Shown here: positions 22,205 through 25,988 of the stretch, one piece after another | How positions within the stretch are numbered: the stretch's first letter is position 1 | How the letters are laid out: every line of letters starts with the position of its first letter | DNA from: an uncultured Roseovarius sp. | Lineage (GTDB): Bacteria; Pseudomonadota; Alphaproteobacteria; Rhodobacterales; Rhodobacteraceae | Reading direction: 5' to 3' | NCBI GenBank assembly: GCA_951812895.1 | Contig: OX638333.1 | Location: forward strand, 2,770,001-2,834,000 | DNA length: 64,000 nt | Made by a program: the position numbers and the translations under genes | The notes under the pieces: generated by a model | Databases searched by the model: none | Seen by the model: the letters and a program-made list of their open reading frames with translations, nothing else | What the model was told of the DNA's origin: nothing

Positions 22205-24280
22205 TCAGCCTGCGATCAGGCCCATTTGTTCCAGTTTGAGGATCACCTGATGGGCGCAGTTATCTACTTCGACATTTTCGGTCTCGACGCTGAGCTCAGG
22301 CTTTTCAGGCACGTCGTAGGGGTCTGAAATCCCGGTGAATTCTTTGATCTTGCCCTCGCGTGCCAGTTTGTAGAGACCCTTGCGGTCGCGGCGTTCGCAT
22401 TCTGCGATCGTGGTGGCAACGTGGACTTCGACGAAGGCGCCGAAGGCTTCTACATCCTCGCGGACCGCGCGCCGGGTGGTAGCATAGGGGGCGATTGGTG
22501 CGCAGATCGCGATGCCGCCATTCTTGGTGATCTCGGATGCAACATAGCCGATTCGGCGAATGTTAAGGTCGCGGTGTTCTTTGGAAAAGCCCAGCTCGGA
22601 CGACAGGTTTTTCCGAACAATGTCGCCATCCAAAAGGGTAACAGGACGCCCGCCCATTTCCATCAGCTTGACCATAAGGGCATTGGCAATTGTCGATTTG
22701 CCTGAACCGGAAAAGCCGGTGAAGAAGACAGTGAAGCCTTGTTTCGACCGCGGCGGGCGGGTTTTACGAAGTTCTTTGACCACTTCAGGGAATGAGAACC
22801 ACTCAGGAATTTCCAGACCCTCTGCCAGACGGCGTCGCAGTTCGGTGCCCGAAATGTTCAGGATGGTGACACTGTCCTTGTCTGCAATTTCATCCATCGG
22901 TTCGTATTGTGCACGTTCCTGCACATAGACCATGTGTTTGAAGTCCAGCATTTCAATGCCGATTTCTTCCTGATGCGCGCGGAACAGGTCCTGCGCATCG
23001 TAAGGTCCGTAGAAATCTTCGCCCTGGCTGTTCTTACCGGGTCCGGCGTGGTCGCGGCCGACGATGAAGTGGGTGCAGCCGTGGTTGGCGCGGATCAGGC
23101 CGTGCCAGACAGCCTCGCGCGGGCCGGCCATGCGCATTGCCAGATTGAGCAGGCTCATTGTGGTTGTGGAGCCGGGGTATTTGTCCAGAACAGCCTCGTA
23201 ACAACGCACACGCGTGAAGTGATCCACATCTCCGGGTTTGGTCATGCCGACGACCGGGTGGATCATCAGGTTGGCCTGCGCCTCCTTGGCGGCACGGAAC
23301 GTCAACTCTTGGTGCGCGCGGTGCAGGGGGTTGCGGGTTTGGAAGGCAACCACCTTGCGCCAACCCAGCTTGCGGAAGTAGGCGCGCAGTTCGTTCGGTG
23401 TGTCGCGACGACCTCGGAAATCGTAATGTACCGGTTGCTGAATGCCGGTGACCGGTCCGCCCAGATAGACGTTTCCGGCGGTGTTGTGCAGGTAGTTGAC
23501 CGCAGGGTGTGCGTCATCATCGGCCCCAAAGACCTTTTCGGCTTCGTTGGATTTGTTCGGGGTCCAGCGGTCGGTGACGGTCATCGTAGCAAGGATCACG
23601 CCTTCCTGATCACGCAGTGCAATGTCCTGGCCCAGCTCGATGCTGTCGGCAAAGCCTTTGGTTACGTCCAGCGTGATAGGCATTGGCCAAAGCGTGCCGT
23701 TGGTCAAACGCATGTTTTCAACAACACCGTTGTAATCTTCTTCGCTGAGGAAGCCTTTGAGCGGGTTGAACCCGCCGTTCATCAATAGCTCCAGGTCGCA
23801 AATCTGACGTGGTGTCAGATCGTGGCTCACCAGATCGGCGGCTTCGACCTTTAGCTTTTGGGCGCTTTCGTAAGAGACGAAAAGCTCTGGGATAGGGGCG
23901 AGGTTGTTTTGCACGAGTTTTGTCCTGTGTTTAAAGGGTTCTAGGCCACTGGTGGTACCGGTGAGTTCGGCATGAAGCGCGTCATATTCCGCGAATTTTC
24001 GGGTCAGAAACTGATCTGTGAGCCGTATCTTTTCCGCCGCGCCGCGGGATGTGAGGGCATAGGCAAAGCGTTGCCGTTTGTCCGGGCCGTCGCGTTCGCT
24101 GATCTTGATAAAACCGGCCTCAGATGCGCGCCGCAGCAAAGCATTCAGATGGCCAAGGGAAACTCCGATCGCGGCGGCGGTTGCGCGCTGCGACGCATCC
24201 GGCGCCAGATCCAGCTGACGCAGGAGGCGGAAGAGCTGATCTTCTTCCTGAAGGTTTGGTTTTGTATCAAGCGTGGTCAA
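22205..24280 (-). CDS. winged-helix domain fused to ATP sulfurylase and APS kinase
   Basis: A 691-residue reading frame. Residues 10-107 resemble the EPS-associated MarR-type winged helix (LFRLLRQLDLAPDASQRATA, AIGVSLGHLNALL, ALTSRGAAEKIRLTDQFL). Residues 123-691 (569 residues) are a complete bifunctional enzyme: ATP sulfurylase with QTRNPLHRAH (314-323) and GRDHAG (408-413), then APS kinase with the P-loop GFSGSGKS (522-529) and a DGD motif. It makes APS and then PAPS. The fused form needs the TTG at 24280, since an in-frame TGA lies just upstream. A GTG at 23914 with AGGAC eight bases before it would start the enzyme alone. No stop separates the halves. Confidence 0.85.
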   Translation of the reverse strand: MTTLDTKPNLQEEDQLFRLLRQLDLAPDASQRATAAAIGVSLGHLNALLRRASEAGFIKISERDGPDKRQRFAYALTSRGAAEKIRLTDQFLTRKFAEYDALHAELTGTTSGLEPFKHRTKLVQNNLAPIPELFVSYESAQKLKVEAADLVSHDLTPRQICDLELLMNGGFNPLKGFLSEEDYNGVVENMRLTNGTLWPMPITLDVTKGFADSIELGQDIALRDQEGVILATMTVTDRWTPNKSNEAEKVFGADDDAHPAVNYLHNTAGNVYLGGPVTGIQQPVHYDFRGRRDTPNELRAYFRKLGWRKVVAFQTRNPLHRAHQELTFRAAKEAQANLMIHPVVGMTKPGDVDHFTRVRCYEAVLDKYPGSTTTMSLLNLAMRMAGPREAVWHGLIRANHGCTHFIVGRDHAGPGKNSQGEDFYGPYDAQDLFRAHQEEIGIEMLDFKHMVYVQERAQYEPMDEIADKDSVTILNISGTELRRRLAEGLEIPEWFSFPEVVKELRKTRPPRSKQGFTVFFTGFSGSGKSTIANALMVKLMEMGGRPVTLLDGDIVRKNLSSELGFSKEHRDLNIRRIGYVASEITKNGGIAICAPIAPYATTRRAVREDVEAFGAFVEVHVATTIAECERRDRKGLYKLAREGKIKEFTGISDPYDVPEKPELSVETENVEVDNCAHQVILKLEQMGLIAG

Positions 24281-24297
24281 GGGTGCGACTCAATATA

Positions 24298-24313
24298 TGT
24301 TCACGCGTGAACA
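24298..24313. promoter_or_regulatory. perfect 16-base palindrome upstream of the sulfate-activation fusion
   Basis: TGTTCACGCGTGAACA, 17 bases before the TTG start at 24280. Its position suggests an operator, most simply for the gene's own winged-helix domain. The right half continues as TGAACACATGTCA, sharing the 11-base TGAACACATGT with the TetR-gene inverted repeat at 1061. Confidence 0.55.
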
Positions 24314-24444
24314 CATGTCATAATCTGCCCGTTTGGAAAAGAGAAAATTCCCTGTGTGATGCTCGGCCGGAAAACTGTTGCCTACGAGTCACTTTGTAAT
24401 ACACAAACCTGTTTATGGGCCCGAAAAGGTTTTACGGTTTGAGA

Positions 24445-25043: not shown

Positions 25044-25988
25044 TCAGCCTTCCAACTCTGCCAAAAACTTCTCAGCATCCAGTGCGGCCATACATCCCAT
25101 TCCGGCGCTGGTGACGGCCTGGCGGTAAACGTGGTCTGTCAGGTCGCCCGCGGCGAACAGGCCGGGCACGGAGGTGCGGGTGCTGCCCGCCTCGACCCTG
25201 ACATAATCGCCATGATGCATGTCGACCTTGCCCTTCACCAGCTCATTGGCGGGGGCGTGGCCGATTGCGATGAACACACCTTTGCAGGGAACTTCGGTAA
25301 TCTCGCCGGTCTGGTTGTTCTTAACCTTCACGCCGGTCACACCTTTGGGATTGTCATCTCCGACCACTTCTTGCAATTCATGAAACCAGAGCGGTTCGAT
25401 CTTGGGATGTTTAAGAAGGCGGTTCTGAAGGATCTTTTCGCCACGAAGCTCGTCACGGCGGTGAATCAGGGTGACCTTGCTCGCAAAATTAGTTAGAAAA
25501 AGCGCCTCTTCGATGGCAGTGTTGCCGCCGCCGATTACGACAATCTCTTGCCCGCGGTAAAAGAACCCGTCGCAAGTGGCACAGGCGCTTACGCCAAAAC
25601 CCTTGAATGCCTCTTCGCTTTCCAGTCCAAGCCATTTTGCCCGTGCTCCGGTGGCAAGTATTACGGCATCGGCTGTGTAAACCGTGCCGCTGTCCCCTTT
25701 GGCCACAAAGGGGCGGCTTTCTGTGTCGAGCTCGGTGATGATATCGCCAATGATCTCACATCCCATCGCTTTGGCATGCGCTTCCATCCGGACCATCAGG
25801 TCGGGGCCCTGTACCTCTGTATCGCCCGGCCAGTTTTCAACTTCGGTTGTTGTGGTCAGCTGCCCACCGGGTTCAATCCCCTGAACCAGAATTGGCTGCA
25901 GCATTGCGCGGCTGGCATAAACGCCGGCAGTGTAACCTGCAGGTCCGGACCCGATGATCAGAGTTTTGGTGTGACGGGTTTCTGCCAT
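25044..25988 (-). CDS. trxB: thioredoxin reductase
   Basis: A 314-residue FAD enzyme that reduces thioredoxin with NADPH. GSGPAGYTAGVYASRA near the N-terminus binds FAD, the redox pair is in SACATCDGFFY (CATC), VIGGGNTAIEEALFL binds NADPH, and the C-terminal GLFAAGDLTDHVYRQAVTSAG segment is also typical. Length is exactly that of bacterial TrxB. It is divergent from the Lrp-type regulator at 26264 across about 275 bases, an arrangement I associate with Rhodobacteraceae. Confidence 0.95.
   Translation of the reverse strand: MAETRHTKTLIIGSGPAGYTAGVYASRAMLQPILVQGIEPGGQLTTTTEVENWPGDTEVQGPDLMVRMEAHAKAMGCEIIGDIITELDTESRPFVAKGDSGTVYTADAVILATGARAKWLGLESEEAFKGFGVSACATCDGFFYRGQEIVVIGGGNTAIEEALFLTNFASKVTLIHRRDELRGEKILQNRLLKHPKIEPLWFHELQEVVGDDNPKGVTGVKVKNNQTGEITEVPCKGVFIAIGHAPANELVKGKVDMHHGDYVRVEAGSTRTSVPGLFAAGDLTDHVYRQAVTSAGMGCMAALDAEKFLAELEG

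Follow-up and report, generated by a model that had tools for sequence, protein, structure and literature searches.

An ATP sulfurylase/APS kinase gene of an uncultured Roseovarius sp. probably encodes a trigger-enzyme autorepressor, and the same gene would also make the enzyme without its DNA-binding head from a second translation start. The gene lies on the minus strand of the window, by which we mean the whole 64,000-nucleotide stretch of DNA that was analyzed. When its sequence is compared with those of relatives, three features are evident: the fusion of a regulator head to the enzyme, the footprint of an operator, and an internal AGGA with a start codon behind it.

Results

The open reading frame and its profile matches predict a long product of 691 aa (22205..24280, minus strand) that joins a winged-helix head to an ATP sulfurylase/APS kinase. 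Residues 121-690 match NF004040 (bifunctional sulfate adenylyltransferase/adenylylsulfate kinase) with 1033.5 bits against a cut-off of 669, and Pfam assigns PUA-like, ATP-sulfurylase and APS-kinase domains to the enzyme part, each nearly full length. These matches confirm a complete enzyme of 569 residues from residue 123, as a first, sequence-only reading of this DNA had described. NF004040 enzymes (solved relatives 2gks and 3cr8; fungal ATP sulfurylases 1i2d and 1m8p) have the same three Pfam domains; the fusion adds 122 residues at the N-terminus, which include a winged helix.

The head and its linker occupy residues 1-122 (23915..24280, minus strand). Residues 12-107 align with 96 of the 105 positions of TIGR04176 (MarR_EPS), with a score of 84.9 bits when the head is searched by itself (E 3.4e-24) and 80.3 bits for the whole protein. 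Both scores fall under the curated cut-off of 88, which makes the head a relative of this family and not a member. The Pfam MarR profile PF01047 gives 12.2 bits, under its cut-off of 24.6, and PF13412 (HTH_24) gives 25.7 bits, over its cut-off of 21.9. AF2 models the head (14 sequences, pLDDT 83.7) as a MarR-type winged-helix fold with a long C-terminal helix; the predicted recognition helix spans residues 42-54 (24119..24157, minus strand), and the C-terminal helix is single. The top PDB matches of this model in Foldseek are MarR regulators, although the match is moderate (E 1.3e-4, TM 0.57 by query length). A search by sequence returned no solved relatives of the head at E 0.01. The proposal that the head is an EPS-associated MarR regulator thus stands as far as a winged-helix relative of TIGR04176 is concerned, but family membership does not follow from a score of 84.9 against 88. 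Codon comparisons indicate that the head is under purifying selection, with a median dN/dS (NG86, 25 pairs) of 0.11 for the head and 0.03 for the enzyme; the head dS exceeds 1 in some pairs. No other close relative of the head was found in the window's genome (next best match E 0.49), which leaves the fused protein as the only evident reader of the palindrome described below.

Head-bearing Sat/CysC homologs, whose frequency the sequence-only reading had left to a profile search, were found in the genus and in the wider family. Within the genus (36 genomes, including the window's), the fusion is present in 15, with one match incomplete; the other 21 have no head, and their enzyme alignment begins no earlier than residue 110. 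We also sampled 394 genomes of the family, close to one for each genus, and 135 of them have a head match at E 1e-6. Ninety of these heads are strong (E 8e-45 or better, counted by eye); 88 of them lie in open frames of 690 aa or more and two in shorter frames. The divergent fusion L200, described below, comes in addition to these, and most of the other matches lie in short, free-looking frames. Of the 394 genomes, 325 have an enzyme match at E 1e-150, 89 with and 236 without a strong head. Among the best 80 of 269 loci in a scan of named genomes, 79 carry the complete fusion and one runs off the end of its contig; the record titles (titles only) include Roseovarius, Phaeobacter, Shimia, Tateyamaria and Pelagimonas. 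Species with the fusion include Shimia marina and Roseovarius albus. Outside the family, no fusion was found among 385 genomes of the class at E 1e-10, and the head matches there lie in frames of 108-339 aa. Because the fusion recurs across many separate assemblies, it is neither a frameshift nor an assembly artefact, and the in-frame join is confirmed as no sequencing error. Its recurrence in other genomes also rules out a fusion private to the Roseovarius genome of the window.

In an enzyme tree (FastTree, conserved protein), the fused label needs 34 changes, at least 11 of which are forced by supported branches, and a single clean clade of fused enzymes is not supported. This number of changes argues that the head is often lost, regained or exchanged and is dispensable, a point against the autorepressor reading. 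In a head tree built from 42 of 116 fused heads, 23 free heads and one divergent head, a single branch splits fused from free heads, on a short alignment and with support that is not decisive (SH-aLRT 94). One locus, L200 (genome G354), carries a very divergent head on the same enzyme, together with two palindromes and a GAGGA before the internal ATG; its sequence suggests an independent or fast-evolving fusion.

The palindrome TGTTCACGCGTGAACA (24298..24313) is a putative operator that lies 17 bases before the TTG at 24280. The motif TGTTCAN4TGAACA occurs once in a scan of the window's genome. Allowing YGTTCAN4TGAACR adds one further copy, at 649580, an ambiguous site covered by open frames on both strands; a scan allowing two mismatches gave 230 matches and was too loose for use. 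For comparisons between loci, we used 111 fused and 59 unfused enzyme genes that remained after duplicate proteins were removed. A perfect.GTTCAN4TGAAC. is found upstream of 109 of the 110 distinct fused genes with upstream DNA (L207, which lacks it, was left out), and the remaining gene, L066, has one mismatch. The palindrome is also present at 80/80 named loci (the best 80 of 269) and in all 15 fused same-genus genomes. None of the 59 unfused enzyme genes has it within roughly 700-1500 nt upstream, and L019, one of the unfused loci, has a related but more widely spaced palindrome 961 nt upstream. In the fused genes, columns -24 to -16 and +29 to +37, counted from the first base of the palindrome, are low in information, so conservation of the palindrome does not merely reflect relatedness. 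Chance is ruled out by its uniqueness in the genome and its presence at 109/110 fused and 0/59 unfused genes. The palindrome that had been noted before the long start is therefore confirmed and is tied to the fused genes. At some loci another palindrome lies upstream of the first; it is imperfect in L174, L176 and L066 and perfect in L107 and L131, which suggests tandem operators in these genomes.

A wider regulon was considered and is not favoured. Across 20 same-genus genomes there are 18 extra YGTTCAN4TGAACR sites, and each of the 11 that we inspected overlaps an open frame of 110 codons or more, which is weak evidence where the DNA is GC-rich.

The position of the palindrome points to repression. 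A promoter scan of the window predicts a -35 element ATGACA (24316..24321, minus strand) and a -10 element TATATT (24292..24297, minus strand), separated by an 18-nt spacer that the palindrome fills. This predicted promoter (24321-24292) has 10/12 consensus matches, and one such promoter was found compared with 0.1 in shuffles. Both elements fall in columns conserved among fused genes, a GTGACA-like stretch (-8 to -3) and a yAyttT stretch (+16 to +21); in the latter the second-base A has a frequency of 0.96 and the sixth-base T of 0.81. A site inside the -35/-10 spacer is the position of a repressor, and repression is favoured. A T-rich block, TT....CTTT, is also conserved in the fused genes at -34 to -25 from the palindrome and is perhaps an UP element.

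The same comparison supports the long start. TTG 24280 follows an in-frame TGA by a few codons, with no other ATG, GTG or TTG between them, and the ATG of several relatives aligns with this TTG. It begins 33 nt after the first base of the palindrome; the corresponding distance, taken to the first ATG or, failing that, GTG/TTG, is 31-35 nt in 91/109 fused relatives and 31-40 nt in 103/109 fused genes. The match in distance makes TTG 24280 credible, and we retain it as the sole start of the long form, as first proposed. With a start this close to the palindrome, the mRNA leader would be just a few bases long.

Free relatives of the head appear to use the same class of operator. We drew 23 free MarR_EPS-like genes, located elsewhere in family genomes, from chosen genomes and left out 6 further free matches. 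A site matching at least 11/12 of YGYTCAN4TGARCR lies within 320 nt upstream of 20 of the 23, a score reached by 0.43% of simply shuffled stretches. The residue aligned with N46 of the recognition helix is N or H in the free proteins and N in all 111 fused heads. GTTC/GAAC is present in both halves of the site in 9 of 10 N-type free genes with a clear site (assigned partly by eye, with kinship uncorrected) and in 2 of 11 H-type genes, most of which carry GCTC or GAGC in one half or both; two further N-type genes lack a clear site in the 320 nt upstream. The sites of the fused genes have GTTC/GAAC halves, like those of most N-type free genes. The free genes also carry an upstream octamer: GCGGTAGC is found in 17 and GCGGYAGC in 20 of the 23 (L179-L199, L201, L202), about 30-90 nt upstream of the aligned head and mostly between palindrome and gene. 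We take GCGGTAGC to resemble the ops element. Such elements are typical of surface-polysaccharide operons. The fused genes thus share with MarR_EPS an alignable head and, through free family relatives, an operator class; they differ in that the head is just under the family cut-off and is joined to an enzyme, and the ops-like octamer occurs in only 2/111 fused upstreams.

We compared the fused gene with its sulfur-metabolism context. The best CysH-like protein of the genome has CC and CxxC cysteines, presumably the mark of an APS reductase. If this CysH is of the APS-reductase type, PAPS is unneeded for reduction and may instead serve sulfotransferase-like genes. PF13469 finds one such gene clearly over the cut-off and one marginal, and PF03567 finds three over the cut-off. 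One PF03567 gene (39.4 bits) lies at G000:C1:2836345-2836980, about 2.3 kb past the window end and near the PAPS-making locus. The relaxed site at 649580 is not at any sulfotransferase-like or CysH-like place found in the genome. The suggested tie between PAPS supply and polysaccharide sulfation thus stays weak: sulfotransferase-like genes and the CysH cysteines speak for it, but the one further site lies away from both kinds of gene. Near the fusion is a pyridine nucleotide-disulfide oxidoreductase gene (thioredoxin reductase-like by eye; window 25044-25988, minus strand), and a similar coding sequence, also judged by eye, is found just upstream of some unfused enzyme genes (L020, L021).

Both the ops-like elements in front of the free head relatives and the sulfotransferase-like genes in this genome would fit a head that is an activator, or that anchors the enzyme to DNA for another reason such as coupling to a sulfation or polysaccharide programme. 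We regard such a role as unlikely, since the site within the -35/-10 spacer favours repression and since the inspected extra sites all overlap open frames, with the caveat on GC-rich DNA given above.

The border between head and enzyme carries a second, putative translation signal. An AGGA (23923..23926, minus strand) lies 8 nt before an internal GTG at 23914, from which a short product of 569 aa (22205..23914, minus strand), the bifunctional enzyme alone, could be made. In all 111 fused genes the border arginine is encoded by AGG, a codon that none of the other 36 conserved Arg columns uses in more than 7/111. This is the only single-codon column among 241 conserved four- and six-fold columns. 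The next codon always begins with A (111/111) even though its residue is T, N or S, which makes the AGGA invariant. Eight bases on, the codon is ATG in 87 genes, GTG in 23 and TTG in one. The start for the enzyme alone that the sequence-only reading had pointed out is thus present, and its two elements are conserved in every fused gene. Such codon-level conservation is strong evidence that the internal start is under selection, and the idea that the fused gene also gives a head-less enzyme is strongly supported by these sequences. AGG is rare in these genes and sits in the linker, as would suit a translational pause that lets the head fold in place of a ribosome-binding site. A pause is nonetheless very improbable, as it explains neither the invariant A in the next codon nor the constant ATG/GTG/TTG 8 bases on, where the residue is M, V or L.

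Median anti-SD pairing is -4.0 kcal/mol at the internal start, -2.2 at the long start, -3.0 at unfused starts and -2.05 in random coding sequence. Because 24% of random coding stretches reach -4 kcal/mol, pairing strength proves little, and the case for the internal start rests on conservation of the AGGA. The stronger pairing at the internal start, together with the 236/325 enzyme-bearing family genomes that have no strong head match, could be taken to mean that only the short enzyme matters and that the long frame is what remains of an upstream regulator gene that was captured. We give this very little credence: the frame is kept open in 111 distinct fused genes, the head has a median dN/dS of 0.11 and an invariant N46, and the operator is retained in 109/110.

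Discussion

Trigger enzymes are described in an excerpt of PMC8249747 as metabolic enzymes with a DNA-binding part that controls transcription. The Roseovarius gene corresponds to this description, with an enzyme joined to a DNA-binding domain (by homology and model) and a conserved operator at its own promoter (by sequence). Together, the MarR_EPS-like head, the palindrome tied to it and the conserved internal start make autoregulation as a trigger enzyme likely. PutA, BirA and NadR of E. coli likewise combine a metabolic enzyme with a DNA-binding part; the fusion differs from them in its enzyme, an ATP sulfurylase/APS kinase, and in its MarR_EPS-like head. We know of no conserved internal start giving a head-less enzyme in PutA, BirA or NadR.

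We infer DNA binding, repression, the transcript start, the presence of both products in cells and any signal, and propose the following model. The head would have been captured from a MarR_EPS-type regulator with the same kind of operator. RNA polymerase would use the promoter whose 18-bp spacer holds the palindrome, yielding a near-leaderless mRNA whose first codon would start the long, DNA-binding enzyme, while the internal Shine-Dalgarno site on the same mRNA would give the plain enzyme. Two heads of one oligomer could then occupy both half-sites and block the promoter, so that the enzyme keeps its own synthesis in check. A model of the full-length protein (pLDDT 51.8) is too poor for judging whether an oligomer places two heads per site. 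Candidate signals are occupancy of the enzyme by APS, PAPS or ATP, or plain enzyme concentration.

The last of these corresponds to a sub-case of the autorepressor reading in which the enzyme part senses nothing and the head is only a concentration gauge for simple negative feedback. This is quite possible, if short of an even chance. In the AF2 model a winged helix and one long helix make up nearly all of the head, and the single TGTTCAN4TGAACA of this genome fits pure homeostasis. Nothing speaks directly against a gauge, but it does not explain why the regulator is joined to the enzyme, even though a fusion couples its dose to the amount of enzyme. A more tentative extension of autorepression is a two-start rheostat, in which head-less enzyme would join the oligomers as an anti-repressor and the long/short ratio, together with bound APS or PAPS, would set repression. 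One gene would then be sensor, repressor, anti-repressor and catalyst.

Published data touch on the system at a few points. In the excerpts of open-licence PMC papers that we covered, no earlier description of the fusion was found, and excerpts of the regulon survey PMC5343134 contain no mention of adenylyl- enzymes. A bifunctional enzyme of 64.39 kDa listed for Roseobacter litoralis (excerpt of PMC4103551) is uninformative on the fusion, and an excerpt of PMC3678758 mentions a Phaeobacter gallaeciensis knock-out of a sulfate adenylyltransferase/adenylylsulfate kinase gene, which may be fused or unfused. An excerpt of PMC3305630 places published N-termini in additional files. In part of a Ruegeria pomeroyi table (PMC9769926), cysJI and cysH drop far more than SAT in some columns, a difference that would fit separate control of SAT, whether the gene is fused there or not.

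Since regulator, site and only evident target share one locus, a single protein and a single promoter are enough to test the whole circuit. Selection for two proteins from one gene has left its trace at codon level in the conserved internal start, and the same kind of analysis could uncover other dual-start enzymes. If our model is true, a large and abundant marine group gains a regulator of sulfate activation, an enzyme that controls its own gene. On the evidence of their sequences, many marine Roseobacter-group bacteria seem to use one gene for both a plain and a head-bearing form of this enzyme, and the headed form probably shuts off its own gene.
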